From contig NZ_CP004353.1 of the NCBI RefSeq assembly GCF_000550805.1, positions 2,604,001 to 2,668,000 on the forward strand: a stretch of 64,000 bases of DNA, written 5' to 3'. Shown in pieces: positions 28,503-64,000 of the stretch. The notes under the pieces are model-generated. The model worked only from the letters and a program-made list of their open reading frames with translations. It had not been told where the DNA came from and ran no database searches. How positions within the stretch are numbered: position 1 is the first letter of the stretch; the number at the start of each line of letters is the position of its first letter. This DNA is from Corynebacterium vitaeruminis DSM 20294 (GTDB lineage: Bacteria > Actinomycetota > Actinomycetes > Mycobacteriales > Mycobacteriaceae). The position numbers were made by a program, and so were the translations under genes.

Positions 28503-28554
28503 TGGAAGGTCCTTCTAAGAGAAGTGGTGGTGGGAAAGTCGTTGCAAGCGGCTT

Positions 28555-29262
28555 CTAGCAGCTGGCGCAGAGCATCGCTGCAGCGCGTCGGCCGACGACC
28601 GGGGCCAGCGCCGCGCCGAGCGGGGCCGAATGGGTGATGACGGAGCCCGTCGCGTCTTGGATCTTGGAGATGGACGAAGTCGCTGCATCGAGCAGCAGCC
28701 CGTGGGTGACGAACAACGGGAGCACGTGGACCCGCGGGTGCATGATGGTGACCTCCAGCAGCGAGGACTTGTTCGCCCCGGTCGCCTGGACGCTGGTCAC
28801 GCCGCGCCCCAAAGTCGTTGCAAGGGTACGAGCCAGTCCCATGACCTGCTCGTTCGCCGCCTCGTCGGAGGAGCCGACGGAGTAGAGGGCGATGTGGCTT
28901 CCGGCAGGAGCCTCTGCAGCGACTTTCTCCGCGAGCACTCGGGCGACGAGGAGGTCGGTGCCGAGCGCGTCCGCGAGCACCAGCCGCAGGCCGGTGGCCG
29001 ACTGCGTTGCAGCGACTTCGCGCGGCACGTCGACCTTGTGGTGGTAGGCGCTGCTAAACAGCAGCGGAACCACCACCGCGTCCTCGATCCCCTCGGCGAC
29101 GAGCCGGCGTGCGACGGCCCCGAGGTCGGGTGCCGAGAAGTCGAGGTGTGCCTCGAAACATGGCATGCCCATTCGCTCCGCCACGGCCTGGCGCAGCTCG
29201 CGCACGGTCGCTGCGGCCTTGGGGTTGCGGGACCCGTGGGAGAGGAGGATGAGGGCAGTCAT
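28555..29262 (-). CDS. cysY: Sirohydrochlorin chelatase family protein CysY
   Basis: A 235-residue CbiX/SirB-type chelatase. The metal-binding His are in ILLSHGSRNPKA near the N-terminus and in SSAYHHKVDVPRE at mid-length. It probably inserts iron into sirohydrochlorin to give the sirohaem needed by CysI in the same cluster. It ends 52 bases before cysZ. The gene contains several motif-A sequences, beginning at 28678. Confidence 0.88.
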   Translation of the reverse strand: MTALILLSHGSRNPKAAATVRELRQAVAERMGMPCFEAHLDFSAPDLGAVARRLVAEGIEDAVVVPLLFSSAYHHKVDVPREVAATQSATGLRLVLADALGTDLLVARVLAEKVAAEAPAGSHIALYSVGSSDEAANEQVMGLARTLATTLGRGVTSVQATGANKSSLLEVTIMHPRVHVLPLFVTHGLLLDAATSSISKIQDATGSVITHSAPLGAALAPVVGRRAAAMLCASC

Positions 29263-29291
29263 GTCGGTGTTCCTTCCTTATCTATTGGTGC

Positions 29292-30584
29292 CTAGCGCAG
29301 GCGCTGTCCTACCAGCCCTGCGGCCAGGGTGTTGCCGGAGGCGTTGTCGACGAGCAGGAACGATCCCACCGCGCCGCGCGCCGCGTACTCGTCGATCGGC
29401 AACGGCTTTTGCGTTTCGACGACTACGTGGGCGATGTCATTGAGGGCGATCTCCTCGGGCGCATCGACGTCGTGAATCCCGTCGATGTCGAGGGTGCGCG
29501 TGATCTCCGCGATGCGGCCGCGCACCAGCGCGGTGCCGTAGCGGACCTTGAGCAGCTGGCCCGCGCGCAGGCTCTTTTCCGTGAGCCCCACGACGGTGGC
29601 CGCGAAACTGCGGCGCTCCTCTGGGCGATTCGTCGAAGAGATGAGCTCGCCGCGGACGAGGTCGATCTCGTCGGCAAGCCGCAGCACGACCGAGTCGCCC
29701 GCGGTCGCTGCAACGACTTCGCCGTCGGAGGTGTCGATGCCCACGACCGTGGAGGTGCGTCCCTCCGGCAGCGCGACGGTGTCGCCGACGTGGACGGTGC
29801 CTGCAGCGACTTGGCCGGCGTACCCGCGGTAGTCGCTCGCGTGCTCGCGGATGACGTACTGGATCGGGAAGCGGAAGTCGAGCTCGTTCGCCCGCCCGGT
29901 GGACACCGGGATGGTCTCCAGCAGCTCGAGGACGGTCGGGCCCTCGTACCAAGGCAGGTTCTCGCTGCGGGTGACCACGTTGTCGCCCTTGAGGGCGGAG
30001 ATCGGCACGACGTGCGGGTCGGCGACGCCGAGCGTTGCAGCGAGTTGCTCGAAGTCGTCTCGGATCGCGTCGAAGGTCTCCTTCGAGTAGCCGACGAGGT
30101 CGATCTTGTTCACGGCGAGCACCACGGTGCGGACGCCGAGCAGCGCTGCCACCGACAGGTGGCGGCGGGTCTGCTCCACCACGCCATGGCGGGCGTCGAC
30201 AAGCAATACAACGACTTGGGAGGTGCTCACGCCGGTGACGGTGTTGCGGGTGTACTGCACGTGCCCCGGGGTGTCCGCGAGGATGAAGGTGCGGCGATCG
30301 GTGGCGAAGTAGCGGTAGGCCACGTCGATGGTGATGCCCTGCTCGCGCTCGGCGCGCAGACCGTCGACCAGCAACGATAAGTCGAGCCCCTCGAAGCCGC
30401 GGTCGGCGGAGGTGCGCTTCACGGACTCCAACTGGTCGGAGAGGACGGACTTGGTGTCGTGCAGCAGGCGGCCGACGAACGTGGACTTGCCGTCGTCGAC
30501 GCTGCCCGCGGTGCAAAAGCGCAGGGTCTCGCGCTGGGCGAGCAGTTTCGTGGCGGAGGTCTTCTCCTGGGTGGCGGTGGTCAT
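29292..30584 (-). CDS. cysN: Sulfate adenylyltransferase large (GTPase) subunit CysN
   Basis: A 430-residue translation-factor-like GTPase. The P-loop is GSVDDGKST, G3 is DTPGH and G4 is NKID. With CysD it makes adenosine 5'-phosphosulfate from ATP and sulfate, driven by GTP. There is no APS kinase extension, which agrees with a pathway that reduces APS directly. The start overlaps the cysD stop (TGATG). Confidence 0.95.
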   Translation of the reverse strand: MTTATQEKTSATKLLAQRETLRFCTAGSVDDGKSTFVGRLLHDTKSVLSDQLESVKRTSADRGFEGLDLSLLVDGLRAEREQGITIDVAYRYFATDRRTFILADTPGHVQYTRNTVTGVSTSQVVVLLVDARHGVVEQTRRHLSVAALLGVRTVVLAVNKIDLVGYSKETFDAIRDDFEQLAATLGVADPHVVPISALKGDNVVTRSENLPWYEGPTVLELLETIPVSTGRANELDFRFPIQYVIREHASDYRGYAGQVAAGTVHVGDTVALPEGRTSTVVGIDTSDGEVVAATAGDSVVLRLADEIDLVRGELISSTNRPEERRSFAATVVGLTEKSLRAGQLLKVRYGTALVRGRIAEITRTLDIDGIHDVDAPEEIALNDIAHVVVETQKPLPIDEYAARGAVGSFLLVDNASGNTLAAGLVGQRLR

Positions 30585-32298: not shown

Positions 32299-32321
32299 GG
32301 TGGGTCTTTTCGTTGCAAGGA

Positions 32322-34836: not shown

Positions 34837-36195
34837 ATGACCACCTCTACCCCGCTTCGCGTCGCCGTCATCGGTGCAGGCCCCGCCGGCATCTACGCCT
34901 CCGACATCCTGGTGAAAAACACCGAGGGCGACGTGGCCATCGACCTCATCGAGCAGATGCCAGCGCCCTTCGGGCTGATCCGCTACGGCGTGGCCCCCGA
35001 CCACCCGCGCATCAAGGGGATTATCAAGTCGTTGCATCGCGTCCTCGACACCCCGCAGATCCGCCTGCTCGGCAACATCCACGTCGGCCGCGACGTGAGC
35101 GTTGAGGAGCTGCAGCAGTACTACGACGCCGTAGTCTTCGCGACCGGCGCCGTCGGCGACCGCTCCATCGGCATCCCCGGCGAGGACCTCGAGGGCGTGC
35201 ACGGCGCGGGCGAGTTCGTGGGATTCTACGACGGCAATCCGCGGTTCGAGCGCGACTGGGACCTGTCGGCGAAGGAGGTCGCGGTCATCGGCGTCGGCAA
35301 CGTGGGCCTCGATGTCGCCCGCATCCTTGCAAAGACCGGCGACGAGCTGCTGGTCACCGAGATCCCCGACAATGTCTATGCATCGCTGAAGGACAACCAG
35401 GCCGAGACCGTCCGCGTGTTCGGCCGCCGCGGCCCGGCCCAGGTGAAGTTCTCGCCGCAGGAGCTCAAGGAGCTCGACCACTCGCCCACCATCAACGTGG
35501 TCGTCGACCCGGAGGACATCGACTACGACGCCGCCTCCGAGCAGGCCCGCCGCGATTCCAAGTCCCAGGACCTCGTCTGCCAGATCATCGAGGGCTACGC
35601 GCTGCGTGAGCCGAAGGAGGCCCCGCACGCGCTGCAGATCCACCTCTTCGAGAACCCCGTGGAGATCCTCGGCGAGAACGGCAAGGTGGTGGGGCTTCGC
35701 ACCGAGCGCACGGAGCTCGCCGGCGACGGCTCCGTCCGCGGCACCGGCAAGTTCACGGACTGGCCGGTCCAGGCCATCTATGCCGCGGTGGGCTACCGCT
35801 CGGACGCCATCGACGGCGTGCCCTTCAACGACGCACAGCACGTCATCAACAACGACGGCGGCCACGTCGTGGACCTCGACGGCGCGATCGTCCCCGGCCT
35901 CTACACCACCGGCTGGATCAAGCGCGGCCCCGTCGGCCTCATCGGAAACACCAAGTCCGACGCGAAGGAGACCATTGACATGCTGCTTTCCGACGCCAAG
36001 GCGGGCCTACTCGGTGCCGAGTACACCTCCGACTTCACCGAGCTGCTTCGCGAGCGCGGCATCGACTACACCACCTGGGAGGGCTGGCACGCCCTCGACG
36101 CCGCGGAGCGCGCGCTCGGCGAGGCCGAGGACCGCGAGCGCAAGAAGATCGTCGAGTGGGAGGAGATGGTCGAGGCCTCGAAGGTGACCGTCTAG
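34837..36195 (+). CDS. fpr2: Ferredoxin/adrenodoxin-type NADP reductase Fpr2
   Basis: A 452-residue flavoenzyme of the adrenodoxin reductase/FprA family. FAD binds at GAGPAGIYASD near the start and NADP at GVGNVGLDVARIL in the middle; PFGLIRYGVAPDHP and TGWIKRGPVGLIG are family blocks. ATG at 34837 starts at the conserved region; the frame is open to 34612 but that part is regulatory. It probably passes NADPH electrons to ferredoxin for CysI, and is divergent from cysI as in C. glutamicum. An in-gene AAGTCGTTGCA (35026-35036) encodes K-S-L-H. Confidence 0.93.
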   Translation: MTTSTPLRVAVIGAGPAGIYASDILVKNTEGDVAIDLIEQMPAPFGLIRYGVAPDHPRIKGIIKSLHRVLDTPQIRLLGNIHVGRDVSVEELQQYYDAVVFATGAVGDRSIGIPGEDLEGVHGAGEFVGFYDGNPRFERDWDLSAKEVAVIGVGNVGLDVARILAKTGDELLVTEIPDNVYASLKDNQAETVRVFGRRGPAQVKFSPQELKELDHSPTINVVVDPEDIDYDAASEQARRDSKSQDLVCQIIEGYALREPKEAPHALQIHLFENPVEILGENGKVVGLRTERTELAGDGSVRGTGKFTDWPVQAIYAAVGYRSDAIDGVPFNDAQHVINNDGGHVVDLDGAIVPGLYTTGWIKRGPVGLIGNTKSDAKETIDMLLSDAKAGLLGAEYTSDFTELLRERGIDYTTWEGWHALDAAERALGEAEDRERKKIVEWEEMVEASKVTV

Positions 36196-36346: not shown

Positions 36347-37519
36347 ATGACTTACTTTGATCTCCCCTTTCAGCCCGACGAGCTGACCCAAGAAGCTATT
36401 TTTGCCGCGCACGAGGGCGGCAAGCTGGCTGTGGCCTCCGCCCGCCCGCTGCGCTCTCGTCACGACCTCTCCCTCGCCTACACCCCGGGCGTGGCCCAGG
36501 TGTGCAAGGCCATCGAGGCCGACGAGTCCCTGTACCCGCGCTACACCGGCGCCGGCCGCACCGTCGCCGTGATCTCCGACGGCACCGCGGTCTTGGGGCT
36601 TGGCGACATCGGCCCGAAGGCCGCCATGCCCGTCATGGAGGGCAAGTGCCAGCTGTTTTCCTCCTTCGTCGACGTCAACGCGATCCCGATCGTCGTCAAC
36701 GAGACCGACACCGACAAGCTCATCGAGGCCATTGCTGCCATCGCCTTGAGCTTCGGCGCCATCAACCTGGAGGACATCTCCGCGCCGCGCTGCTTCGAGG
36801 TGGAGCGCCGCCTCGACAAGATGCTCGACATCCCGGTCTTCCATGACGACCAGCACGGCACCGCCATCGTGCTCACTGCGGGCATCAAGAACGCCTGTAA
36901 GCTCGCCGGCCGCACGCTCGAGGACCTGCAGGTGGTCATCTCCGGCGCGGGTGCCGCGGGCATCGCCTGCTGCAAGATGCTTCTCGACGCTGGTGTGAAA
37001 GACATCATCCTGCTTGACTCCAAGGGCGTTATCCACCCTGACCGCGAGGGCGGCCTACACCCGGTCAAGCAGGAGATCGCCGAGATTACCAACCCGCGTC
37101 GGGTCACCGAACGCGAGGCCGCCTTCGACGGCGCGAGCGTGTTCATCGGCCTCTCGCGCGGCAAGGTCGGCGAGGACCTGCTCAAGCGCATGGCCGAGAA
37201 GCCCTTCCTGTTCTCGCTCGCGAACCCGGACCCGGAGATCGAGCCGGAGCTGGCCGCTAAGTACGCCTCTGTCGTTGCAACGGGGCGCAGCGACCTGCCC
37301 AACCAGATCAACAACGTGCTGGCCTTCCCTGGCATCTTCCAGGGCGCGCTCAACGCGCAGGCCACCTCGATCACCCCGGCGATGAAACTCGCTGCATCGG
37401 AGGCGATCGCCTCGATCGTGGGCGACGACCTCGCCGTCGACTACATCATCCCGTCCGCGCTCGACAGCCGCGTCGCCCCGGCGGTCGCTGCAGCAGTCGA
37501 AAAGGCGGCACTCGCTTAA
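36347..37519 (+). CDS. malE: NADP-dependent malic enzyme MalE
   Basis: A 390-residue short-form malic enzyme. The catalytic/metal region is PVFHDDQHGTAIV, and the dinucleotide motif is GAGAAGIACCKML. It decarboxylates malate to pyruvate and makes NADPH. Length agrees with the C. glutamicum enzyme (about 390). A 151-base gap separates it from fpr2, with TAAAATG-type AT-rich promoter DNA. Several motif-A variants lie in the last 250 bases. Confidence 0.93.
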   Translation: MTYFDLPFQPDELTQEAIFAAHEGGKLAVASARPLRSRHDLSLAYTPGVAQVCKAIEADESLYPRYTGAGRTVAVISDGTAVLGLGDIGPKAAMPVMEGKCQLFSSFVDVNAIPIVVNETDTDKLIEAIAAIALSFGAINLEDISAPRCFEVERRLDKMLDIPVFHDDQHGTAIVLTAGIKNACKLAGRTLEDLQVVISGAGAAGIACCKMLLDAGVKDIILLDSKGVIHPDREGGLHPVKQEIAEITNPRRVTEREAAFDGASVFIGLSRGKVGEDLLKRMAEKPFLFSLANPDPEIEPELAAKYASVVATGRSDLPNQINNVLAFPGIFQGALNAQATSITPAMKLAASEAIASIVGDDLAVDYIIPSALDSRVAPAVAAAVEKAALA

Positions 37520-37585
37520 ACACGCCTTCGGCTCCTCGCCCCCGTTCCCCTGCTGCGGAGCGGGGGCGACGTCGTTGCAACGACT

Positions 37586-38176
37586 TTAGATAAGCCCCAA
37601 TTCCTCGACTGCCTGCGCGAGTTCGCGCGCCCCGCGCGCCACCGCGTCTGCCCACGTCCCCGTGGATTCCTCGTTGGCGTTGTCGCTGACCTGCTTGAGC
37701 AGCCGGACCGGGATCTCGAAGTGCTGGCAAGTCTTTGCAACGGCGTAGCCCTCCATGTCGACCAGCTCCGCGATCCGCGCGAGCTTCTCGCGGCGCAGCG
37801 AGTCGTTGATGAAGGAGTCGCCGGTCGCAAGCCTCGCAGTGGGAAGCGGGCCACCGGATTGCTGCAGAGCCAGGGCGTTGGGGAAGGGGCGGCCGGTGAT
37901 CTGCTCGATGGCGCTCGTGTCGAAGTCGTGCTTGATCACCTCGGTAATCTCGTACACCCCGGCGTAGCCGTCGACAAGCGAGCCAGCAGTGCCGATGTTG
38001 ATCACCGCTGCAGGGCGCGGTCCGCGCGCGAGTACTTCCGCCAGGGCGATGGTCGCGTTGAGCGTGCCGATGCCGGTGATCAAAGTCGTTGCATCGTGTG
38101 GCAGCGCCGCCGCCTCGCCCGCGACCGCCGCGATGAACAGAGGGCGACGGGGATCGATCTCGTGATTCAGGTGCAT
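37586..38176 (-). CDS. MTA/SAH nucleosidase-family protein
   Basis: A 196-residue nucleoside phosphorylase-fold protein. GTAGSLVDG and LVDMEGYAVAKTC match the phosphate/ribose and adenine pockets of methylthioadenosine/S-adenosylhomocysteine nucleosidases, and DNANEEST the catalytic Asp block. ATG at 38176 is taken because upstream sequence belongs to the YwiC-like gene. It probably recycles methionine by-products, fitting the nearby sulfur genes. At 196 residues it is shorter than typical MTAN (about 230). Confidence 0.82.
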   Translation of the reverse strand: MHLNHEIDPRRPLFIAAVAGEAAALPHDATTLITGIGTLNATIALAEVLARGPRPAAVINIGTAGSLVDGYAGVYEITEVIKHDFDTSAIEQITGRPFPNALALQQSGGPLPTARLATGDSFINDSLRREKLARIAELVDMEGYAVAKTCQHFEIPVRLLKQVSDNANEESTGTWADAVARGARELAQAVEELGLI

Positions 38177-38195: not shown

Positions 38196-39107
38196 CTATC
38201 CGGCAAAGAGCACGGCAAGCCCCGCGAGGATGCACAGCGGCACCTCGGCAACACCGATCTGCTTCGGGGTCCACGCCCAGCGGTGGAGCGTGAGCGGGAA
38301 AGTCGTTGCACGCACGAGCGCCCACACGGCGACCACGATCATGAGCCACCACGACGCGACAGGGACGATGCGTCCGGCCCCGAGAAAGAGCACCGCAACG
38401 ACGACCACTGCGTGGTAGGCCACCGAGCCAACCAGGTAGCCGGATTTGCCGCGCTCGCGCACCATCGTCTTCACGAACGGTATGGTGCCGGTGAAGTACG
38501 CGGCGAGGAAGGCCGTCGCCGCCCACTGCGATGCCGGGATCCCCGCGAGACTCCTGGTTGCATCGCTTCGAGCGACCTCGCCGACCAAGTACAGCGCTGG
38601 CAGCAGCAGCGCGGAGGCGCACGTGGTGGACACGCCCGAGAGCAGCGAGCGGGGTCGGTGCCGCAAAGTCTCTGCAACGGCGATGAGAACCAGCGGAGCG
38701 AACAGCGGTGCGAACCACAATAGACAAGGAGCAAGGAGGACGACGATAACGATGCACGCCAGGCTCATCGCCCCGGTGACCGCCATCGGCACGGCGTATT
38801 CGTGTTTGCGGTGCGGGTTGCGCGCCTTGACCCACTGGCCGAAGGCGAAGAAACAGAAGTAGCCGGAAAACCAAGCGCCGAGGATGAGCGCCAGCGTAAC
38901 CACGAGCCGGGGTAAAGTCGTTGCATCCTGGCGAAGTAGCGCCACCAGCACCCCGGCGACCGCGGGCGTGGACAGCATCGCCCACGCGCCGTGTTGGTTG
39001 GGCACCCACCGGGCAGCCGTTCGCCGGGCCTTTCGCGTCGGCGGTGACGGAGTTGCCGGGGTGGAGTTCGATGCAGCGACAGGATACACATCGTCATGGT
39101 ACATCAT
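38196..39107 (-). CDS. YwiC-like membrane protein
   Basis: A roughly 303-residue protein. After a Pro/Ser/Thr-rich N-terminus comes PNQHGAWAMLSTP, the hallmark of the YwiC-like family, then about eight hydrophobic segments. The function is unknown. The start is uncertain: ATG pairs at 39107/39104 follow an AT-rich promoter-like stretch, while the frame stays open to 39206. It ends 19 bases before the nucleosidase start and is probably cotranscribed with it. It carries at least three motif-A copies. Confidence 0.8.
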   Translation of the reverse strand: MMYHDDVYPVAASNSTPATPSPPTRKARRTAARWVPNQHGAWAMLSTPAVAGVLVALLRQDATTLPRLVVTLALILGAWFSGYFCFFAFGQWVKARNPHRKHEYAVPMAVTGAMSLACIVIVVLLAPCLLWFAPLFAPLVLIAVAETLRHRPRSLLSGVSTTCASALLLPALYLVGEVARSDATRSLAGIPASQWAATAFLAAYFTGTIPFVKTMVRERGKSGYLVGSVAYHAVVVVAVLFLGAGRIVPVASWWLMIVVAVWALVRATTFPLTLHRWAWTPKQIGVAEVPLCILAGLAVLFAG

Positions 39108-39353: not shown

Positions 39354-39842
39354 ATGAGTCGCTCACTTTCCATCGCTGTCATCGGCGCCGGCGCGTCCGG
39401 CCTCTACATTGCCGATCAGCTCATGTGCCGCACCGTGGGCGCCCACATCGATCTCATTGACCAGACCCCGGCACCCATCGGCATCGCCGCCTACAGCGCC
39501 CGCCCGCCGCGAAGCGTTGCAGCTTCGACCACCCACCTCATCGGCAACGTCCGCGTCGGCACCGATGTTTCGGCTGCAGAGCTTCGCGGCGTCTACGACG
39601 TCGTCATCGATGCAACGACTTTCGCCGAGGGGGTCTCCGAGTTCACCCTCGACGCGACGATCGACATCGCCCTCGCAGGCGCCGAGGCCACGCATCCGCG
39701 CCTCGAGCTCGCCGAGCTGCTGCAGCGCCGAGGCGTCCCGGCGACGCGGTGGGTCAACCCGCTCAACCTCCCCACCGGCCGGGGCCTTCGCGAATGGCAG
39801 GCGGCGCTCGCCACCTCCCGCGGCGTCCCGGTGTGCTTTTAA
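39354..39842 (+). CDS. Miniature Fpr-like protein lacking the NADP domain
   Basis: A 162-residue protein. Its first about 110 residues follow the N-terminal half of Fpr2 from the same window: IAVIGAGASGLYIADQL parallels VAVIGAGPAGIYASDIL, DLIDQTPAPIGI parallels DLIEQMPAPFGL, and IGNVRVGTDVSAAEL parallels LGNIHVGRDVSVEEL. The NADP-binding domain is absent; the C-terminal 50 residues are unrelated to Fpr2. AAAGG precedes ATG 39354. A perfect McbR box lies upstream, so it is likely sulfur-regulated. It may be a decayed paralog or a small FAD-binding partner. Confidence 0.75.
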   Translation: MSRSLSIAVIGAGASGLYIADQLMCRTVGAHIDLIDQTPAPIGIAAYSARPPRSVAASTTHLIGNVRVGTDVSAAELRGVYDVVIDATTFAEGVSEFTLDATIDIALAGAEATHPRLELAELLQRRGVPATRWVNPLNLPTGRGLREWQAALATSRGVPVCF

Positions 39843-39910
39843 AAAGTCGTTGCAACAACTCCCGCAGGCCCCTTCACCCGGGGCTGCCGGGAGTTTTGCG
39901 CGTGAAGGAA

Positions 39911-42934: not shown

Positions 42935-42950
42935 TTTGCAACGACTTTGT

Positions 42951-50371: not shown

Positions 50372-50497
50372 GTAGTTGGGTCAGGGGCGCATCGACAAAG
50401 CGTTGCAACGACTTCGATTTCGCCGCCTGCCACCCGGTTCATTTTATTGCAGCGGCCGGTGCTATGATTGTCCACAGTCATTCTTCGGAACGACGGT

Positions 50498-50699: not shown

Positions 50700-52419
50700 T
50701 TACTTGCAAGTCACGATCGGCGACGGGTCGTAGACCGTGGTGGTGGTTTCGCGGGAAAGCTCGTTTCCGGAAAGGTCGCGGATGATGCGGGTATCAGAGG
50801 TGGTAAAGCCCTGGGCACCGGTGGACGGGGTACACGTGTCGCCGCTCAAGGTCATCGGCTGCGGGGCGGTGTAGTTCCAACGCCCACCGTTTTGCGACTC
50901 GACGTTGACTGCCTTCACACCCATGAGGGCGACCGAGATGTTCGAGCCGTCGAAGTTGGTGACGATGCGCACCGGGTACTGGGAGGTGTTCTTGAACTGC
51001 AAGTCGATGGCGCCCTCATAGACGGTGGCCTCGCGCCCAGCCGGATACCGGGAAATGTAGTAGGAGTGCGGGGTGTGCGCCACGTCCTCCATGCCGGCGA
51101 AGTAGGCGGCGTTATACAAAGTCGTTGCAAACTGCGAGATGCCGCCGCCGACTGCCTTGTCGGCGTGCCCGTTGAGGATGATGCCGGACTCAACGAATCC
51201 CTGCGCCGTACCGCGCGGGCCAGTGTACCCGTTCAGCGAGAAGGTATCGCCGGGGGCGACGATGGCACCGTTGACGATCTCCGCGACGCGGCGGATGTTC
51301 TCGCCAGAGGCCTCCGCGAATCCGCCGGTGGAGAACTCGCCGACGACCTCGTCAAAGGTCGCCTTCTCCGCCATGTCCGTCGTAAACGTTGCGGGCTCGT
51401 CGGTGTAGACCGCATCGAGCGTGCGCTGATCGGAGCTGAGGACTCGCCCGCTGAAGCCCTCCAGAGTCTTGTCCCAATCGATGGTGACGCCGTCCTGGCT
51501 CGGCGTTATCGACTTCGTGCCACCAGCGTAGGAAATCGTTGCATTCTGTTTCTTGGTCTCTGTGGCACCGAGGGCCTCATTCAGAATCGACCGCGCGGCG
51601 TCGGCGTTGACGTCGGTACGGAACTTGTCGCCGTCGGGGACGAAGCTGACCACCTCGGCCATCCGGTCGACGGGGATCACGCCGTCAACGCCGTCGCGGC
51701 CATGGACCGTAATCGGGGCGGACAGCGCCTTTGCGGCGTCGCCGTCTTGCACCGACTTGACCACCTTATCGCCCAGCGTCGGCTCGGTCACCTGTGCATC
51801 GACCTCGACCCCGCCCGGCTTGAGCCAGTCGGAGGTCACTGCGTCCTTGAGCTTCGTTGCATCGACTTGCTGCCCGTTCTTGGGCTGCGGGTCGACGTTG
51901 ATGGTGCCGCCGTTGAGATTGACGCCTGCCTCCACCGCCGCCGGGCTCAGCTCGGTGCGAATGCGATCGAGCTGCGGCGCAAAGACCTGCTCATCGATGG
52001 TAGAGGCAGGTTCAATCTCATGGGTAGTAAAAAAGCTAGTCAGGCGAGTGATAGGGTTCGCCGATTGCTTGCCAGCGCCCGCAACCGTGGCCTCCCAATC
52101 GATGGCAACGCCAGCGTCTTGCGGCACGAAGGTAGAGCTCAGGTCGCCAGCACGCACGGTCACAGGCGTCGTCCCTGCCGCACCGAGCTCGGATTGCAGC
52201 TTGTCGACGGCTGCCGCCTGCTGCAGCCCCCCCGATTTCGACGCCTCCGACGGTCACGCCTCGAGGGACGGAGTCCCTGGACATGAAAAGGTCGGCACCG
52301 TATGCCACGCCGCCGATCACGGCAAGGCCTAGGACCGTGCCGCCTGCGATGCGGGCGGCCTTCTTGCCGCCGCGGGAGCGTTGCCCCTGTTTCGAATCTG
52401 AGCGAGTCACGGTTCCCAA
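50700..52419 (-). pseudogene. VanW-family peptidoglycan-binding membrane protein, frameshifted
   Basis: Two overlapping frames encode one protein. The first (start 52419) gives a basic N-terminus, one membrane anchor (about 23-45) and GVTVGGVEIGG, the usual entry to a PG-binding domain; the second continues with LQQAAAVDKLQSELG, tandem PG-binding-type domains and a VanW domain with APGDTFSLNGYTG and GGGISQFATTLYNAA. The break is a run of seven G (52227-52233 on the complement); six G would restore one 560-570 residue frame. It may be a sequencing error, a phase-variable tract or a true pseudogene. The intact form would sit in the cell envelope. Confidence 0.85.
52227..52233 (-). repeat. G7 homopolymer at the VanW frameshift
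   Basis: ATC-GGGGGGG-CTGCAG on the coding strand. Removing one G joins the two halves of the VanW gene exactly. Confidence 0.85.
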
Positions 52420-52616: not shown

Positions 52617-53789
52617 CTAAGCGAACTGCAACTTCACGCGGGCAACGCTGCGATCGAACTGCTCGCGGGGGTATTGGCCGCTATTGACCGCCGCGACGAC
52701 CCCATCGATCGCTTCGTCGAGGCCGGCCGTGGAAATCCACAGCGCCTGGTCGGCGCCAGCCTCAAGTGCGGTGATCGCCGCCTGCTGCGGAGGCATGAGG
52801 TCGGAGACCGCTTTCATGCCGGACAGGTCATCGGTATAGACCACGCCATCGAATGGGCGCCCGCCCGGGTAGCTTCCCGAACGCAGCAACTGGTAGGCCG
52901 CCGGATTCAAGCTCGACGGGAGGTACTCGCCTAGGCCAGGTACGACCATGTGCCCCACCATCACGCCCGCACCCGTCACCGAGAGGGCCGTGTTGTACGG
53001 CACGAGATCGAATTGCTCGACATCTGCCAGCGGCGGGGTGACCACCTGACCGGTGTGCGAGTCCCCGCTCGCGCGGCCATGCCCTGGGAAGTGCTTGAAC
53101 ACCGGCTTGACCCCCGCGTCGAGCATCCCCTGCGCGAAGGACGCCGCATAGCTACCGGCCACGGCGGGATCGTCGGAGAAGGAACGGTCGCCGACGACGT
53201 CAAGGTTTGCACCATCGACATCGAGCACCGGTGCGAAGTTGACCGTGACCCCATGCTGTGCCAGCGAGGTACCCATGTCAAAGGCAATGCCCCGGACCTG
53301 GTCTGGACTCATCGTCTGCGCCATGACCTGCGGCGAGGGAAAGTTGCCGAGGATCTCGGGGAAGCGCAGCACGCGGCCGCCCTCGAAATCGATGCTGACC
53401 TGGAAGGGGTGGGCGACCTGTGCGCGCAATGTAGCGATGTCCCGCCCAGGCACGTTCAGCAACTCCGGGTTCGTGTCGGAGCCGATGAAGATGCCGCCAG
53501 CGCCCTGGTTCAGAGCCCACAGCGCGTCATCGAAGTCGCGCACACCGACCATCATGAGGCTCGCTGCCGCCGCGCGCACATCGACCGTCGGGGCGGGGGC
53601 CTCGGTGGTCGCGGAAGTCGTTGCATCCGAAGAGGCAGTGCTTGGGTAGCTCGCGGAGGTCGAAGTCTCCGCCGATTGCGCAGCCGACTGCGGCGAAGCG
53701 TCTTGAGAATTCGAGCACGCCGCGAGACCCAAGGCACTCACGCAGGCGAGCGCTAAGAGGGGACGCGCGAGGATTCTCATGGTTATCAT
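52617..53789 (-). CDS. nagA2: GH3 beta-N-acetylglucosaminidase lipoprotein (NagA2-like)
   Basis: A 390-residue lipoprotein with lipobox LGLAAC near residue 25, then a Ser/Thr-rich linker (about 28-68). The catalytic domain has KHFPGHGRASGDSH, the NagZ His/Asp loop, and VYTDDLSGM with the nucleophile Asp. It should remove N-acetylglucosamine from cell wall fragments on the outer face. Position between dcd and the AftD-like gene resembles C. glutamicum nagA2 as I recall it. Start is Met1 or Met4 (53780). Confidence 0.87.
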   Translation of the reverse strand: MITMRILARPLLALACVSALGLAACSNSQDASPQSAAQSAETSTSASYPSTASSDATTSATTEAPAPTVDVRAAAASLMMVGVRDFDDALWALNQGAGGIFIGSDTNPELLNVPGRDIATLRAQVAHPFQVSIDFEGGRVLRFPEILGNFPSPQVMAQTMSPDQVRGIAFDMGTSLAQHGVTVNFAPVLDVDGANLDVVGDRSFSDDPAVAGSYAASFAQGMLDAGVKPVFKHFPGHGRASGDSHTGQVVTPPLADVEQFDLVPYNTALSVTGAGVMVGHMVVPGLGEYLPSSLNPAAYQLLRSGSYPGGRPFDGVVYTDDLSGMKAVSDLMPPQQAAITALEAGADQALWISTAGLDEAIDGVVAAVNSGQYPREQFDRSVARVKLQFA

Positions 53790-54000
53790 CGTCTGCCTTT
53801 AGTTCATCGTTCAACCGCCGTGCTTTGTGTCCACGGCGCCTACGGTTCACACCCTATCGTCCGCGCGCCTTGTTCGTGAGGTCTTGGCATTTCGGCGAGG
53901 TGTAAAGTCGTTGCAATTTCTCTTCTAGGGTGTCTTCCGTTGGGTGCTTTGGTGGCGGTGCGCCTTTAGGCATGGAGACGCGTTTGCTAGTGTTGAGCGC

Positions 54001-54210: not shown

Positions 54211-57200
54211 TTGCCTGCGCAGCTCTCGCGCCTCGGCGTTATCGGCCGAAAGGGATCGCACTTCCTCCGCGGCAACGGTGCGGTGCACCTTCTCGGTTGG
54301 CTCGCTCTTTGTCTTATCTTTTTCTTGCAGTCTCCTGGGCTGACTGCCGCTGACACGAAGCTCGATCTCGTGGCGGACCCCACGAAGTTCCTGCATGATG
54401 CGCTCAGCGCCTACACTGACACGTTTACCCTCGGCCAGTTACAAAATCAGGCATACGGGTATCTCTTTCCACAGGGCTTCTTCTTTCTCCTAGCAGGCCC
54501 GCTCCCCGATTGGGTGGCGCAACGGCTGTGGTGGACACTCGTGTGCGGCATTGGGTTTTCCGGTTTTCTAGCGCTAAGCAGAAGGCTTGGGGTCGGCACG
54601 CCTGTTTTTCAAGTCGTTGCGGCATCCTTGTATGCACTGTCCCCGCATACACTCACGACGCTGGGTGCCATCAGCTCAGAGACGTGGCCGGCCATGCTTG
54701 CTCCGTGGATCCTGTTGCCTTTCTTGGGGCCGAAGGTCGGACGCGCGCAAGTCGCTGCATCGGTGATAGGCGTCGCATGTCTCGGCGCAGTGAATGCAAC
54801 GGCGACGCTCGCGGCCTGCGTTCCCGCGGGCGTTGCGCTCCTGTTCTACCGGCGGTTCAAGGCGCTGGCCGCGTGGCTAGGCGGTTGCCTCCTCGTCAGC
54901 TCGTGGTGGATAGTCCCCCTCGTGGTGCTGGCTAGGTACTCCAGCCCGTTCACGGATTACATCGAGTCAGCAGGCGTTACCACCCGGTGGCTCAATCTCG
55001 CGGAGATCCTTCGAGGAACGACAAGCTGGGCACCGTTCGTGGACAGCGAACGCATCGCGGGCAATGCCTTGGTGACCAGCCCGTACTTTGTCGTCGCAAC
55101 CCTCATCGTGGCTGGAGCGGGACTCGTCGGCCTCGGCAAGTCCTTCCCTAGGCATGCCTTTTTCGTGGCACTTTTAGGGATCGGCATCTTCATCCTCGGC
55201 GGGGCACACCTTGCAACGACTTTCCTCGACGGCACTGGGTCCGCCTTACGCAACGTGCACAAGTTCGATCTGTTGGTTCGACTCCCGCTTGCGGTGGGCC
55301 TTGCCGCACTAGGGCCGAGCATCGCCAGCATAGCGTCGGCAAGCAAGAAAGCAACCGCGGTGGCGCTTTGCATCGTTTTCGCAGTGGGTGCGACTGCGCC
55401 GGTGTTCAATCGGGTCTTACCGCAGGGCGCCTACCAGCAGATCCCGGACTATTGGAAGCAAGCGGCGGAGTTTATCAATGCAAACGCCGTCAACACTCGC
55501 ACGCTGATCTTGCCGTCGAGTAGCTTCGCCCGGCAAACCTGGGGGTGGACCCGCGACGAACCTGCGCAGGCGCTTCTCGACGTTCCGTGGGCGGTGCGCG
55601 ACGCCATCCCGCTGGTCGACCCCGAGGCCATCCGCGGTCTCGACGGGCTCACGGAGCGCCCCACCGAAGACAATCTCACGCGCATGGGCATCGGCGCGAT
55701 CATCGTTCGCCACGATCTTTCCGGGAACGACGTCTCTACCGCGTCATACTTCCCCGAAGCGGACGTGCAAAGCTTCGGCGACGTCGACGTGGTGCTGCTC
55801 AATCCGAAGCTCAGCATGCTCATGACGCAGCAAGTCAACCTACCCACCGTGGCTGGTGGCGGCGAGATCCTTTCGCTTCTCGGCGCTGGCTCCTACCAAC
55901 TCGTCGGCGGCGACGCGGACATCGTGACAGACACGCCGGCGCTCGTTGCCCGCAACTACGGCACGCTTGGTAGCGTCTCGGCGCCTTTGGCGTCGACAAG
56001 CGAAGGAAAAGACGTGCTCAACCCCGTCAAGGACTATCCCTCCGTGGGGCCCATGAGCGTCGTTTCGGAGGTCGGACATGTCTCCGCATCGTCCTCGGCC
56101 TCCGATGCAACAAGTTTCGGCGGCAGTGTACCGTCGGAGTCAATCACCGCGGCCGTCGACGGCAACGACCAGACCGCCTGGTATCCCACACCAGGAACGC
56201 AGCAGGGGCAATGGATCGAGGTCACGCCCGATCAGTTCCCGGCGCGCACCATCACCATCGAAACCACCGGGGACACCGTGGAACTCGAGGTATCGGCGGG
56301 CCAGGCGCATGTCTCTGCAGTCGCAGCGCCGCGCGAGCCCTTGACTCTGACGGTGCCCGGTGACGGTAACTCCCCCGTACGCATCACCCTCGGCGCATCG
56401 AAATACCGGGTGGGTATCTCGGAGGTATCCTTCGCCGAGGGAACCGTGAGCCGCGTTCTCACCGTGCCAGATACCTCCCCCAATGTCAGCGAATTCCTGT
56501 TCCAACGCGTGCTCAGCGGGGAAAAGGAGATCGTTCGCTCGTTTACCGCGCCGCGTGACATGACGGTGTCGGTCTCCCCCTCCGAGTGCTTCCGAGAGGT
56601 TCTCATCGATGACCACTCCTATCGGTGTGGGGATGACGTGCAGCTCGCACAAGGCCGGCACACGCTGCGAACTTTGGCGCAGTCCATCAAGCTCACCGTC
56701 CCCGGTTTTGCAGACGCGGGAACCCCCAACGACGTCCTCACGCTCGGCGATGACGGCCAGGTGAAAGTCGATGCAAGCGATCGTGACCGCTTGCTCGTCA
56801 CTACCCGTTCCGTGAACTCGGGGTTGCGCGGGTACATCGAGACCAGTAGCGGCGAGGTTGCGCTCGAACCGCGCACCGTCAACGCTGGCTCCCAAGCGTT
56901 CGTCGTACCCGCAGGCACCTCGGGTTCCTTCCGCATGACCTTTGCTGGCAACCGCCCCTACAGGTGGGGGCTTCTTGTCGGCGCCGTCGTCGGCTTCCTC
57001 ACCGTTGCTGTCTGCTTGCTGCTTGTCGACGCTACGCGACGCCGCCCCTCGGCAGAGGGAGAACTACATCCTGACTCCGGACCTGAAGAAGTCGTTGCAT
57101 GGCTACTAGTAGCCCTCGGTTGCGTTGCAAGCATCGGCTGGCCCGCCGTCATCGTTGCACTCGCGATGTGGGCTATCCACCGTTTCACCATCATTCCTCG

Positions 57201-58713: not shown

Positions 58714-60299
58714 CTCGCCAACGGTCCGCCGGAGGTGTCGCCACGCAAGCGCTTGACGACATTCTCCGCGGAGATAAGGCACATCGGTACGCCCACGCCG
58801 GGCACGGTCGTGGCACCCGCGTAGTAGAGCCCGTCGACTTTGCGGGACTTATTGCGCCCTCGAAGGAAGGCCGACTGACGCAGCGTTTGGGCGGGGCCAA
58901 TCGCCCCAGCCGACCACGCATTGTAACGGTCGGCGAAGTCTTCGGGACCGATGGTCTTTTTCACCACGATGCGTTCGCGCAGGTCATCGATCCCCGCCCA
59001 CGCGGCGATCTGGTCGATCGCGGCGTCAGCGATGGCGGCCACCCGCGGTGACTCCTGCCTGTAGGCGCTTCCGAATCCCATGCTGGCATCCGCGGGAACG
59101 GGGATCAGGACGAAGAGGTTTTCGCATCCCTCGGGGGCTACATTTGGATCCGTTGCAGAGGGTTTAGAAATGTAGATCGACTCCGAGGCGCCCAGCGGCC
59201 GCCGCGGCTCCGGACCCTCGTAGACGGCCTTGAAGTCGGGATCCCAGTCCTTCGAGAACAACAAGGTATGGTGCAGAAGCTGCGGTAGCGTTCCTTTGAC
59301 ACCGAGGAGGACTAAGACCGACGACAATCCTGGTTCCCGGCTGGCAAAGTAGTGTTCTGGATAGCTGCGAAGCTTTGCTGGTAGAAGGGCGGTCTCGGTG
59401 TGGTGCAGGTCGGCCGCGGAGACGACGATATCAGCGAGGATGAGTTGTTCCTCCCCAGCCTGGTTGACCACTCGCACGCCGACCGCTTTGCTGCGCTGGC
59501 GGCTTGGAGCGGTCTCAATTGCACTTACGTTGGTGTTCATCACGAAGGACGCACCAACTTGGCGTGCTTGCTTCTCTATTGCTCGAATGAGCCCCGTAAA
59601 ACCACCTTGCGGATATCGGACTCCCTCCACCAGGTCGGTGTGGCTCATGAGCTGGTAGAGTGCCGGGGCTTTGCTCGGCTGCGAGGAGAGGAACACCGCT
59701 GGATACTGGAGGATCTGCCGCAGACGGAAATCGGTAAATTGCTCGTCCACTTCGCTCTTGAGGCTCCGGGTCAGCAGCCGAGCTAGCAGGCGCAGCCGCT
59801 GGCGCACGTCCCTAGTCACCATCGTGCGGGGATCGCTAAACGTGGTGTAGAGGAAGGACGCGAGGGAAATCCGATACACGTCGCTGGCCTGATCGAGGTA
59901 CGCACGAACGGCTGCGCCAGCGCCGGGTTCGATCGACTCAAACAATGCAACGACTTTATCCACACCAGTTTCGACGTCAACGAAACTCCGGTCGTTTGGC
60001 CCCGAGTACACGCGGTAGGCGGGACTGAGATCCTTAAGCTCCAGCTCGTCCTCTGTGCTCGTTCCGCACAGCTCGAAGAAATGGTCGAATGCTTCGGGCA
60101 TAAGGTACCAGCTGGGGCCAGTGTCGAAGCGGAAGCCGTCGACCTCGAGGTTGCCGGCCCGACCGCCGACCTCTTCGTTCTTCTCGACGACCACCACCTC
60201 GTAGCCTTCTCGCCCGAGCAGAGCAGCTGTTGCAAGGCCTGCAACACCTGCCCCGATGACCACGGCACGCTGACCGTGTCCGATGCCCATTGACACCAT
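58710..60299 (-). CDS. crtI: Phytoene desaturase CrtI
   Basis: A 529-residue FAD enzyme. The dinucleotide motif VVIGAGVAGLATAALL is at the N-terminus and the C-terminal FAD region is GLYYAGATTVPGVGVPMCL, typical of CrtI. It desaturates phytoene towards lycopene or neurosporene at the membrane. It starts 12 bases after crtB. ATG 60299 has GGAGAAC just before it. A DnaA box (59956-59964) and an exact motif A (59946-59954) lie inside. Confidence 0.92.
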   Translation of the reverse strand: MVSMGIGHGQRAVVIGAGVAGLATAALLGREGYEVVVVEKNEEVGGRAGNLEVDGFRFDTGPSWYLMPEAFDHFFELCGTSTEDELELKDLSPAYRVYSGPNDRSFVDVETGVDKVVALFESIEPGAGAAVRAYLDQASDVYRISLASFLYTTFSDPRTMVTRDVRQRLRLLARLLTRSLKSEVDEQFTDFRLRQILQYPAVFLSSQPSKAPALYQLMSHTDLVEGVRYPQGGFTGLIRAIEKQARQVGASFVMNTNVSAIETAPSRQRSKAVGVRVVNQAGEEQLILADIVVSAADLHHTETALLPAKLRSYPEHYFASREPGLSSVLVLLGVKGTLPQLLHHTLLFSKDWDPDFKAVYEGPEPRRPLGASESIYISKPSATDPNVAPEGCENLFVLIPVPADASMGFGSAYRQESPRVAAIADAAIDQIAAWAGIDDLRERIVVKKTIGPEDFADRYNAWSAGAIGPAQTLRQSAFLRGRNKSRKVDGLYYAGATTVPGVGVPMCLISAENVVKRLRGDTSGGPLAS

Positions 60300-60311
60300 C
60301 GTTCTCCGTTT

Positions 60312-61241: not shown

Positions 61242-61296
61242 TAGCTTATTCCGTCTAGGCCCGAATTCATGAACCCTCCACCCGCTTGCGCCCCAC

Positions 61297-61336
61297 CGTA
61301 GGCGTCGAAAAGCAGTCGCTTAGCGACGCCTACGGC
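61297..61336. terminator. Hairpin built from inverted motif-B copies
   Basis: CCGTAGGCGTCG (61297-61308) pairs perfectly with CGACGCCTACGG (61325-61336) around a 16-base loop. It overlaps the stop of the acyltransferase gene (61320) and precedes crtB on the same strand. Confidence 0.6.
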
Positions 61337-62381
61337 CGCGATCATTCACCCACGCACGCGCGGGCGCCTCGATCCACTCGTAGCTGGCCGCTGCAACCGC
61401 AATGCTGACGACAATCGTCAGCGCCGCCACACCGACGAAGTCCCCGAGCTCACCGCTAAAGAGATGCACCCCGGACAACGGGATGACGAAGGTGAGCACC
61501 GGCAGGTGCCACAGGAACACCGAGTACGACCACGTGCCCACCCGCACCGCTGGGCGCGATGCGAGCACCCCCTGTGTACGCCCCAGCGCGTAGGGCAGCA
61601 ACAAGACGGCGGCGAACACGGTGCCGCCCACGACTCGTCGCACGAACGCCGCGGGCCCCGGGTGTTCGAGCCCTAACGGCCCGAACCACTCCTGCCCCGC
61701 GACCCAGCACACGATAAGCGCCACGGGCCATGCAACGACTCTCGTCCAGTTCGGCAGGAGAATTTCGCCTTCAAACTCCGCAGCGATGAGTCCGACCACA
61801 AACCACGGCAGATAGCTGGGCGGGAAGATCTGGAAGTTCACCCCCGGTTCCGGCCAAGGCATCCCCGCCCACACGAGCCCGAGCCCGCCGAGCAGCACGA
61901 ACACACCCACCCGTGCCCGGCGCGATCGCAGCCGCCTGACAAGCAGGAAGATCCCCGGCAGCGCGACGTAGAAGGCGACCTCCACGCACAGCGACCACAG
62001 GTGGGTCAGCCCGCCCGCAAGGAAGTCAGGGAAGTAGATCTGCGTAAACGTCAGCGTCGACAAGCTTTCTAACGGCGAGGTACCAAAAGCGGCCGGGACG
62101 AGCGCGAGGACGACGAGGACGACGACCCAGTACGCGGGAAGGATGCGTGCCGCGCGGCGCAGGTAGTAGCCGTCGAGGCGGAAACCGCGCCACAGCAGAA
62201 ACGCCGAGAGCGCGAAGAAAATTGCAACGAAGTAGTCGAAGCGCGCGACGATGGCGCCGAGCACTGAGTGCTGCGACAATCCGGTCTGGAAACCAACGTG
62301 CGTGAGCAAGACCCCAGTGGCCGCAACCCCGCGCAGCCCCTCCAACTGGGGAAGGAAGCGCCGTGGGTACGATGGAGACAC
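61320..62381 (-). CDS. Acyltransferase-3 family membrane protein, probable TmaT
   Basis: A 353-residue OafA/YrhL-type membrane acyltransferase with about ten hydrophobic segments. RFLPQLEGLRGVAATGVLL and the catalytic-type His in LTHVGF mark the family. GTG 62381 is chosen because AAAAGG lies seven bases upstream. C. glutamicum TmaT, which acetylates trehalose mycolates for export, belongs to this family and lies beside a DUF3068 gene as here, so TmaT is the best assignment but is inferred from context. Confidence 0.82.
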   Translation of the reverse strand: MSPSYPRRFLPQLEGLRGVAATGVLLTHVGFQTGLSQHSVLGAIVARFDYFVAIFFALSAFLLWRGFRLDGYYLRRAARILPAYWVVVLVVLALVPAAFGTSPLESLSTLTFTQIYFPDFLAGGLTHLWSLCVEVAFYVALPGIFLLVRRLRSRRARVGVFVLLGGLGLVWAGMPWPEPGVNFQIFPPSYLPWFVVGLIAAEFEGEILLPNWTRVVAWPVALIVCWVAGQEWFGPLGLEHPGPAAFVRRVVGGTVFAAVLLLPYALGRTQGVLASRPAVRVGTWSYSVFLWHLPVLTFVIPLSGVHLFSGELGDFVGVAALTIVVSIAVAAASYEWIEAPARAWVNDRGRRRR

Positions 62382-62495
62382 AATCTGCCTTTTGTGTAGT
62401 CGTTGCAATCGGTGCCCGCGCGATCCCGCGCGGATGCCGCGAACCGCAGGGGGCTCAAACTAGGGAAAGTCTAGCTGAAGAAGGGGCAGTGCCAG

Positions 62496-63680
62496 GTGCG
62501 CAGCAAGTCAGTGTGGGTTCACCGCAGCGCGATTATCGCTGCATTCGTCGTGCTCGCGCTCTCCTCCCTGATACCTGCGATCGTGTTGCAGGGAATCAAG
62601 CCGATCCCGGTCAACACGAGCCGGACGGTGTCCACCGAGCCCGCGGCGACCAAGCTCTACGATCCGCAGGCCAGCTGCCCAGAGGGGTCGCCGCGCAGCT
62701 GTTACGTCGTGGACACCTTCTCCAGCCTGCAGCGCACGCTGCAGACCAGCGCTTCGGAGAAGCGAGACGAGGTCAATCTCGCGGTCAACGAGGAGCTCGT
62801 GCGCACCTCCGCCCCCGATGCAACGACTTCGTCGACTGAATCGGCTGATGCGTCGAACACCGCGCCGGGCAACCAAACCGACGCAGAAAAACTCATCAGC
62901 GTCGACGACTCGCTGCGACTCATCCGTCACTCGACCTACCCGGTCGTCGACACGGTCTCCCACCTTTCGCTCACCGCCCCGAGCTTGGGCGTGGATATCT
63001 CCACCGGCGACTTCGCCCGCGGCGGTTTGCAGTACTTCTTCCCCTTCGAGACCGAGCGCCGCTCGTACCAGTACTTCGATGTCATCGCGCAGCAATCGGC
63101 GCCATTGGATTACGTCGGTCTGGAGGGCGAGACCTACGTCTTTACCCAGAAGATCCCGGCGGTGAGCCTGCGCGAGGCCGTGACCCGCTCTTTTACCCAC
63201 CCGACCGACCTGTCGGACGAACCAGGCGCCCAGTCGAGCCAGTCTGATCTCAGCGATGAGGAGCGCCAGCGCGTCGACAAGCTGCAAGTAACCGGGCCTG
63301 CGTCCGAGTTCTATCCGGCAAGCGACACCGCGCCGACAGGCACGGTCGTCCTCGACCCCTACTATGCAGCGACTCGCACGCTGTGGGTCGAGCCGAAGTC
63401 GGGCACCATCGTCAACCAGGTCGAGGACATGTTCGTCTTCCTTGCCCGTAACCAGCAGGAGGCCGATGACACCGTGGCCGCGGGCAGCGACGACTACCGC
63501 ACCCTATTGCAGACCTCGCTGGCCTGGGATAACGAAACCCGCGAGACGGCGTGGGCGCAAGCACGCCCGGTGGTAAGCACGCTGTATTACCTCAAGCTGT
63601 CGGCGTTCTTGGCCCGCGTGCTCGCCGGCATCTTGCTCGTCTACGGGCTGGTACGGTTCAACCGCGTCCGCAAGTCCTAG
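62496..63680 (+). CDS. DUF3068 (porin PorA family) membrane protein
   Basis: A 394-residue envelope protein with an N-terminal anchor (about 12-34), a large external domain and a C-terminal anchor (about 363-388) ending in a basic tail. This layout, with YFFPFETERRSYQYFD in the middle, is characteristic of actinobacterial DUF3068. GTG 62496 follows AAGAAGGGG. It is divergent from the TmaT-like gene and may take part in mycolate or envelope assembly. Confidence 0.85.
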   Translation: MRSKSVWVHRSAIIAAFVVLALSSLIPAIVLQGIKPIPVNTSRTVSTEPAATKLYDPQASCPEGSPRSCYVVDTFSSLQRTLQTSASEKRDEVNLAVNEELVRTSAPDATTSSTESADASNTAPGNQTDAEKLISVDDSLRLIRHSTYPVVDTVSHLSLTAPSLGVDISTGDFARGGLQYFFPFETERRSYQYFDVIAQQSAPLDYVGLEGETYVFTQKIPAVSLREAVTRSFTHPTDLSDEPGAQSSQSDLSDEERQRVDKLQVTGPASEFYPASDTAPTGTVVLDPYYAATRTLWVEPKSGTIVNQVEDMFVFLARNQQEADDTVAAGSDDYRTLLQTSLAWDNETRETAWAQARPVVSTLYYLKLSAFLARVLAGILLVYGLVRFNRVRKS

Positions 63681-63684
63681 CGCT

Positions 63685-64000
63685 ATGCACCGCCAGCAGC
63701 TCCCGCTCGTCGCGCTCGGCACTGCACTAGTCGTTGCATTGCTCTGGGCGTTGGCGTTCCCCGGCGTTTTAGGTCTGCGCGACATGGTCGTGCTCGATCA
63801 CCCAGCCTTGTCGACGTCTGCCTTCGGCTTCGGAGCAACGCCCGCCCGCAATGCCCCGCAGGACGGGGCGCTCGCATTAGTGGGACTCGTTCTCCCGGCG
63901 TCCTGGGTCGCGCGGTTGGCGCTAGTCGGCGCGGCTACTGCATGCGCTGTGTTCTCCGCGCGATTTGGTGCAACGACGTGGCAGAAAGCCGCGGCAATGA
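63685..64000 (+). CDS. Membrane protein, N-terminal part (cut by window end)
   Basis: An open frame from ATG 63685 to the window edge, 105 codons with no stop. There are hydrophobic segments at about 6-28, 62-82 and 83-95. It is four bases after the DUF3068 stop, so it belongs to the same operon. In C. glutamicum a polytopic mycolate-related protein (MtrP) is encoded near TmaT and DUF3068, so this could be its start, but the sequence alone does not show it. Confidence 0.7.
   Translation, partial: MHRQQLPLVALGTALVVALLWALAFPGVLGLRDMVVLDHPALSTSAFGFGATPARNAPQDGALALVGLVLPASWVARLALVGAATACAVFSARFGATTWQKAAAM

Follow-up and report, generated by a model that had tools for sequence, protein, structure and literature searches.

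A short DNA word repeated about once per kilobase in a single 55-kb block of the Corynebacterium vitaeruminis chromosome

Recurring short DNA words are known from several bacterial and phage systems. HIP1 of cyanobacteria is a perfect octamer palindrome that is found genome-wide. Stoperators follow the direction of transcription, and ram and parS are short specific sites that mark one chromosome region. The subject here is another short word, in its basic form the 9-mer GTCGTTGCA, in a stretch of 64,000 nucleotides from Corynebacterium vitaeruminis DSM 20294. This whole stretch is called the window below, and it covers genome positions 2,604,001-2,668,000 of one contig of 2,931,780 bp.

Uptake signal sequences (USS) and DNA uptake sequences (DUS) are described in more detail. 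According to the available part of PMC1939737, uptake sequences lie within genes in 65% (Haemophilus) or 35% (gonococcus) of cases, and about 10% form inverted repeats. The same part reports a non-coding excess, graded partial matches and accumulation by point mutation. DUS inverted repeats are described as terminators in the accessible sections of PMC2397512, and those of PMC8669397 call matS the signature sequence of Ter. The portions at hand of these three papers and of PMC5217627 describe no array like the one reported here. Among the titles listed, literature searches on the motif itself, on clustering of uptake sequences, on corynebacterial uptake signals and on uptake drive showed no description of it either.

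An earlier note on the window had counted about 29 exact 9-mer loci in 35 kb, on both strands, where chance would give less than one. That observation is confirmed. GTCGTTGCA has 31 exact matches in the window, 20 on the plus and 11 on the minus strand, spanning 28538-63977. These are 29 loci, because two palindromes match both strands. In 100 dinucleotide shuffles the mean count was 0.66 and the largest 3. An exact search on both strands found no copies at window positions 1-28537. The interpretation in that note, which likened the word to USS, DUS and HIP1 and listed several possible roles, is partly supported.

The word was also followed as the 11-mer AAGTCGTTGCA, the 15-mer AAAGTCGTTGCATCG, the 18-mer AAGTCGTTGCAACGACTT and the consensus AAGTCGYTGCAW. 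In the 2.93-Mb genome, 43 of the 44 copies of AAGTCGTTGCA lie at 2,632,536-2,687,696. The block so defined is 55.2 kb long (C1:2632538-2687701) and holds 56 matches to GTCGTTGCA, 34 on the plus and 22 on the minus strand, which merge into 52 exact loci. When 120 kb around the block was counted, the 65 kb of flanks had no GTCGTTGCA. Genome-wide there are 64 copies, so 8 lie outside the block; a control word, read backward, has 13. Sampling 1.26 Mb outside the block gave 3 copies, versus 7.4-10.7 expected from Markov models of orders 2-5. The whole-genome count that the earlier note had called for is thus far above chance in the block, and at or slightly below the Markov level outside it.

Sites can also be scored with a matrix. 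At 12 bits or more there are 112 merged loci in the block, one per 497 bp, versus 4 in 64.8 kb of flanks. They are spread evenly along the block (Kolmogorov-Smirnov p 0.28 against uniform). The exact counts serve as independent evidence, because the matrix was trained on sites inside the block. Across 1.32 Mb of this genome, taken as 66 stretches of 20 kb and including the six around the block, no second block was found. The word is therefore repeated about once per kb in one sharply bounded 55-kb run of ordinary genes, and is rare elsewhere in the genome. Its sites are limited to one chromosomal region, as those of a chromosomal address are. They are not overrepresented throughout the genome, as uptake sequences are, because copies end abruptly at either edge of the block. 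Of the likeness drawn earlier to USS, DUS and HIP1, the uptake-like local footprint stands, but the genome-wide spread does not.

The part of the block in the window, and the exact sites in it, are as follows (window coordinates, strand, description).
28538..64000, no strand, part of the motif domain within the window; the domain runs on for 19.7 kb beyond it
28538..28546, +, first exact site, at the left domain edge, 8 nt 3' of a CbiX-like gene's stop codon
28814..28822, +, exact site in the CbiX-like gene
29709..29717, -, exact site in cysN
35028..35036, +, exact site in an fpr2-like gene (name presumed)
37271..37279, +, exact site in the malic enzyme gene
37571..37584, both strands, intergenic double site where the malic enzyme and nucleosidase genes converge
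38085..38093, +, exact site
38302..38310, +, exact site
38917..38925, +, exact site
39611..39619, -, exact site
39846..39854, +, intergenic exact site, 3 nt past a stop codon
39913..39921, +, intergenic exact site
42314..42322, +, exact site in an Fe-S/CCG-domain gene
42937..42945, -, intergenic exact site, 2 nt past a stop codon
46353..46366, both strands, intergenic double site with the full 18-mer AAGTCGTTGCAACGACTT
46938..46946, +, exact site in a YibE/F-like gene
49285..49293, +, exact site in a ugd-like gene
50404..50412, -, intergenic exact site
51121..51129, +, exact site in a VanW-domain gene
53617..53625, +, exact site, intergenic by our own gene calls
53907..53915, +, exact site, intergenic by our own gene calls
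55212..55220, -, exact site in an AftD-like gene
57091..57099, +, exact site in an AftD-like gene
59946..59954, -, exact site in crtI
61731..61739, -, exact site
62399..62407, +, intergenic exact site
62819..62827, -, exact site
63730..63738, +, intergenic exact site
63969..63977, -, intergenic exact site

The earlier note took an 18-bp palindrome to be the intact form of the word. This does not hold. The matrix gives the asymmetric consensus (A)AAGTCG[T/C]TGCA[A/T], with about 0.2 bits or less at each position further 3'. Double sites, with a match on each strand, make up only 4 of the 52 merged exact loci, and the full 18-mer AAGTCGTTGCAACGACTT occurs just twice, which rules out the palindrome as the unit. 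A comparison of flanks showed no longer sequence common to the copies beyond the consensus, so they do not derive from an inserted unit. As terminator hairpins the four double sites are weak (folding z -0.5 to -1.9). The word is also not parS, as it differs from TGTTTCACGTGAAACA-like sites; five parS-like sites (at most 2 mismatches) lie at 2,888-2,929 kb, and none in the sampled part of the block.

The imperfect copies are informative. One-base variants had been called plentiful, and this is borne out: one-mismatch forms of AAGTCGTTGCA number 41 in the block, versus 0.6 expected from the rest-of-genome sample, a 72-fold excess. The mismatch is at the seventh base in 19 of these, in the leading AA in 10, at the sixth base in 5 and at the third in 4, and only 3 of the 41 are altered at the strict bases T, C, T, G, C, A. 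The spectrum is clearly non-uniform (chi-square p 2e-13). The excess is 3.6-fold at two mismatches and 1.61-fold at three, and the latter is still 1.49 after all forms with at most two mismatches are masked. As controls, 40 other 11-mers were used (39 shuffled, one reversed); their mean is 1.0, with standard deviations of 0.55, 0.16 and 0.09 and maxima of 2.9, 1.37 and 1.26 at two, three and four mismatches. The block thus shows, up to three mismatches, the graded excess and position-specific tolerance that are typical of uptake sequences.

Decay would hit all positions, and the spectrum does not show this, so some force with position-specific tolerance made or kept the sites. Neutral decay of old sites is rejected on the spectrum, and a plain decay footprint is disfavoured. 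The suggestion of a protein-binding site survives, and the tolerance pattern strengthens it. That the strict bases have changed so little at random means either active reading or very recent arrival. From its footprint, a specific reader or a transmission bias appears to have acted on the block.

The reading ranked first, with a rough probability of 0.4, is that the sites accumulated in place for a putative DNA-binding reader that marks the domain. Such a sequence-specific protein would act on the 55-kb segment and nowhere else, and its sites would be dense in this one segment because it acts only there. Its recognition sites AAGTCGYTGCAW, about 110 good matches at one per 0.5 kb, would have built up in native core chromosome. 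The reader would presumably be a host protein that occupies and marks the segment, much like MatP/matS, RacA/ram or ParB/parS addressing, and folding, anchoring or segregation are candidate jobs for a domain marked in this way. Counted in favour of in-place accumulation are the sharp edges, the even density, the position-specific tolerance, the graded partial matches, host-like tetranucleotides, and a low protein identity at the sites.

The last of these comes from the sites inside genes. Gene boundaries are our own calls, and by these 36 of the 52 loci are genic and 16 intergenic, the latter versus a non-coding share of 13% (binomial p 7e-4). A non-coding excess with some inverted pairs (4 of 52 loci double) is thus present, as in uptake sequences. 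Of the 56 matches to GTCGTTGCA in the block, 36 are coding, 18 with and 18 against the direction of the gene; this balance rules out a transcription-linked, stoperator-like role. The coding frames are skewed: x-Ala-Thr-Thr is used 14 times, Val-Val-Ala 13 times and the remaining four 4, 3, 1 and 1 times.

The nearest relative by PEPCK (92%) is a genome here called G205. Residues coded by the sites are identical to G205 in 51 of 127 cases (40%), versus 931 of 1375 (68%) for flanking residues. This covers the 35 coding sites with an orthologue, with 20 residues on each side; a gene without an orthologue is omitted, and at four sites that touch alignment gaps the gaps are scored as mismatches. 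The low identity can mean that the sites altered the protein, or that they settled in variable places. Counting only columns where all outgroups agree, amino-acid change on the own lineage is seen at 5 of 54 motif codons versus 69 of 3156 elsewhere in the block (Fisher p 0.007), and on the relative's lineage at 2 of 54 versus 76 of 3156 (p 0.38). From the excess on one lineage and none on the other, it follows, within these small numbers, that part of the change is due to the sites themselves. Among the 56 sites, the one in the PEPCK gene may be inherited: G205 codes the same Cys-Asn-Asp there, and the exact 9-mer lies within the PEPCK match of other species (for example G006, G041, G048 and G049).

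As for the genes said to carry copies, the family names of the malic enzyme, the NDP-sugar dehydrogenase, the AftD-like protein and CrtI are supported. The name fpr2 is not: its candidate gene (window 34837-36192) has no NCBIfam family at E 1e-30, and we presume that name for it.

An assembly error, an engineered sequence or chance might be considered, given that only one genome of 242 has the array. This is very improbable. There are 31 copies versus 0.66 expected, and they sit across many genes, mostly in two tolerated frames. In addition, a 99% identical pepN aminopeptidase from another record, with a longest contig of 7,779 bases, retains 6 of the 7 sites coded by the motif, so the block is not limited to a single assembly. 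That record is probably conspecific, judging by this protein. The artefact that the earlier note had allowed for is accordingly disfavoured.

Other genomes lack the array. The 241 other genomes of the genus have at most 4 copies of AAGTCGTTGCA each. G205 has no GTCGTTGCA in its syntenic 120 kb. Where the syntenic region is partly covered, G079 has 1 in 100 kb, G082 has 0 in 100 kb and G151 has 1 in 80 kb, and ten further relatives have 0-2 each in 40 kb. Nor does G205 have a comparable domain with another motif in 26 stretches (sampled every 50 kb over the first 970 kb, together with the syntenic 120 kb). An AT-rich repeat in G082 was rejected as a comparable array. It is a 1.8-kb run of spaced tandem units (C1:2670951-2672743), 18 of them, with TAAACCAGTTAC and AACACCGGTATC on one strand, and it resembles the gene of a repeat protein.

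Several results weigh against in-place accumulation for a reader. With no such array in the syntenic parts of G205, G079, G082 and G151, or in the 40-kb parts of the other ten, this is not an old conserved domain. The avoidance of GTCGTTGCA outside the block is weak (Poisson p 0.06 at order 4, in 1.26 Mb), and the four-mismatch excess of AAGTCGTTGCA, 1.19-fold, is within the control range. No candidate for the reader was found in a search of the ParB_N family alone, which has one gene here, as in 4 relatives. The in-gene fraction, the inverted pairs and the graded partial matches are features also reported for uptake drive in the available part of PMC1939737. Finally, the motif-masked G+C content at third codon positions (GC3) is 0.879 in the block versus 0.923 outside (34 and 33 genes, p 5e-4), and lower GC3 is what import might show.

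An imported block is possible, though it is ranked second. It would be a single homologous replacement of 55 kb from an unsampled sibling in which AAGTCGYTGCAW is a genome-wide, uptake-type word, so that the motif came along as a passenger. Sharp edges on both sides and flat density fit this, as do the uptake-like features (a genic share of 36 of 52 loci, the 4 double sites among these 52, the mismatch gradient) when set beside the consulted part of PMC1939737. Seven of the 16 intergenic loci, as read off the locus list, are at most 20 nt 3' of a stop codon, which recalls the DUS terminators in the seen part of PMC2397512.

The GC3 drop, which import would also explain, is found by gene in the middle of the block (about 2,641-2,670 kb) and at neither edge. 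The middle genes of G205 are also lower in GC3 than its left-edge genes, and the GC3 difference from G205 orthologues is 0.034 in the block versus 0.111 outside (p 2e-7). Four-fold sites differ from G205 by 0.466 in the block versus 0.419 outside (weighted; Mann-Whitney U p 0.23), and amino-acid identity to G205 does not differ (p 0.79). Own-lineage change is equal, at 69 of 3156 in the block (16 genes) versus 60 of 2863 outside (11 genes, right flank only). By motif-masked tetranucleotide distance from the genome mean, the two stretches wholly in the block rank 43 and 59 of 66, and the two that overlap a flank rank 20 and 32, where rank 1 is the most deviant. The dialect of a second word, CGTCGNNAAGC, is the same in and outside the block (p 0.28). 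Of 14 relatives, G205 comes closest in every row of the gene table (g054-g087) for which a second relative is available. With G205 closest in and outside the block, equal relative rates and native tetranucleotides, import from a distant donor is ruled out; a close sibling donor is compatible with the composition and rate data.

Even so, tetranucleotides, dialect and relative rate are host-like, and this counts against import in general. No donor is seen among the 241 other genomes of the genus. In a collection of 84,980 genomes, from which records near this genome may be omitted, AAGTCGTTGCAACGACTT occurs once each in only 3 records, of other phyla; yet the block itself has just 2 full 18-mers. 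Smaller imports have left no sign, as there are only 8 other copies of GTCGTTGCA genome-wide. Changes at strict bases in 3 of 41 copies would leave a narrow window of time, yet the pepN of the other record already has its 6 of 7 sites. To our knowledge, moreover, uptake sequences are established only in Neisseriaceae and Pasteurellaceae.

The contents of the block are ordinary. It starts after dnaK and a TauE-like gene and ends next to a carboxyltransferase gene, beside what we take to be a pks13-like gene. It includes sulfate-assimilation genes, malic enzyme, ugd, an AftD-like gene, crtI, PEPCK and pepN. The block lies some 244-299 kb from the end of the contig and is separate from the parS-like sites at 2,888-2,929 kb. 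Of 43 called genes, 39 have a match in G205 in the same order, which rules out a mobile element or prophage. A phage as carrier of the motif was rejected as well: on viral contigs the 18-mer is in 0 stretches, and the 15-mer AAAGTCGTTGCATCG is in 32 with one match each.

This gene content bears on a third and rather unlikely explanation, a local transmission drive. The 55-kb segment would be preferentially transferred (packaged, exported or mobilised), and motif copies would be passed on more often. Sites placed where the protein differs from G205, together with the weak partial matches, fit drive at least as well as need. There is also an HNH endonuclease-like gene near the block centre (window 57634-58710), without a match in the syntenic 120 kb of G205; its named relatives are ordinary HNH proteins, mostly corynebacterial, and as the driver of the motif it is weak. 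A scan of 25 of the 43 called block genes gave no integrase, relaxase or packaging family, and the collinearity with G205 also speaks against such a drive. A drive should presumably fall off with distance, but the density is flat and the edges are sharp.

In-place accumulation is therefore ranked first, a single import second and a local drive third; none is proven. The stronger form of the first is that of a new, species-specific chromosome address, in which a protein would define a 55-kb domain via about a hundred sites, many of them in genes at a cost to protein sequence. This is somewhat doubtful. Since the nearest available relative is without it, the address would then be seen at an early stage after it arose. 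We know of no precedent for a bacterial domain of such site density.

If the sites are read in place, the block would be a natural experiment on the origin of a chromosome domain with its own code and exact edges. If it was imported, it would point to an actinobacterial lineage, outside the genomes searched, with an uptake-type motif. The data also suggest that amino acids encoded by core genes can be altered by a motif within a single lineage.

Some other repeats were seen along the way. CGTCGNNAAGC is dispersed in the genome, with 641 copies in 1.26 Mb outside the block, or about 10 per 20 kb; examples in the window are at 3736, 6653, 26213 and 30194. Its density is 18.5 per 20 kb in the block versus 10.1 outside. 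A form of it heads the 11-mers in 11 of the 14 relatives; the other three show a tandem run (G082), a weak word (G069) and no word (G062). Its NN positions have dialects: AC here and in G079, GC/GA in G205, AT in G236, AG in G019 and AA in G233. This word looks genus-wide and DUS-like. The other strong outlier among the 66 stretches, C1:2270001-2290000, has about 42 copies of a repeat with AAAACCCCTGGTAGACTT and resembles a CRISPR array. Two open reading frames (ORFs) of 86 amino acids, with identical first 60 residues and opposite orientation, lie 14 and 16 kb outside the two block edges (C1:2618716-2618976, plus strand, and 2704102-2704362, minus strand); they might be transposase-like. Two further ORFs, of 247 and 132 amino acids (window 12528-13271 and 14985-15383), also share their first 60 residues, with starts 2.5 kb apart, in a stretch of 58-60% G+C (8-16 kb): a local duplication or insertion.

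Among the known systems, uptake sequences (USS, DUS) share with the array an asymmetric core of about 10 bp, on both strands, at about one per kb, in genes and gaps. They also share some inverted pairs and a graded excess of partial matches (PMC2397512, PMC1939737, in the parts available). Unlike these, the motif here is confined to 55 kb of one genome, has a Gram-positive host, and is known from sequence alone. A ComEC-family gene (PF03772), the one family looked for in this regard, is present here, as it is in 10 of 14 control genomes. Compared with chromosomal address sites, it is not conserved in related species. The array is accordingly filed under neither class, as it has neither the genome-wide spread of uptake sequences nor the conservation of matS-type sites.

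HIP1 is likewise an overrepresented short motif within genes, but the motif here is local and asymmetric. Mycobacteriophage L5-type stoperators likewise comprise some tens of short, asymmetric sites spread across about 50 kb; unlike them, the sites here are in a host and not a phage genome, and their coding orientation is evenly split. In matS/MatP, ram/RacA and parS/ParB, as here, a specific short site marks one chromosome region. Compared with those sites, the motif here is denser, at one per 0.5 kb. It is also often in coding sequence and found in one species only, and its reader is putative.

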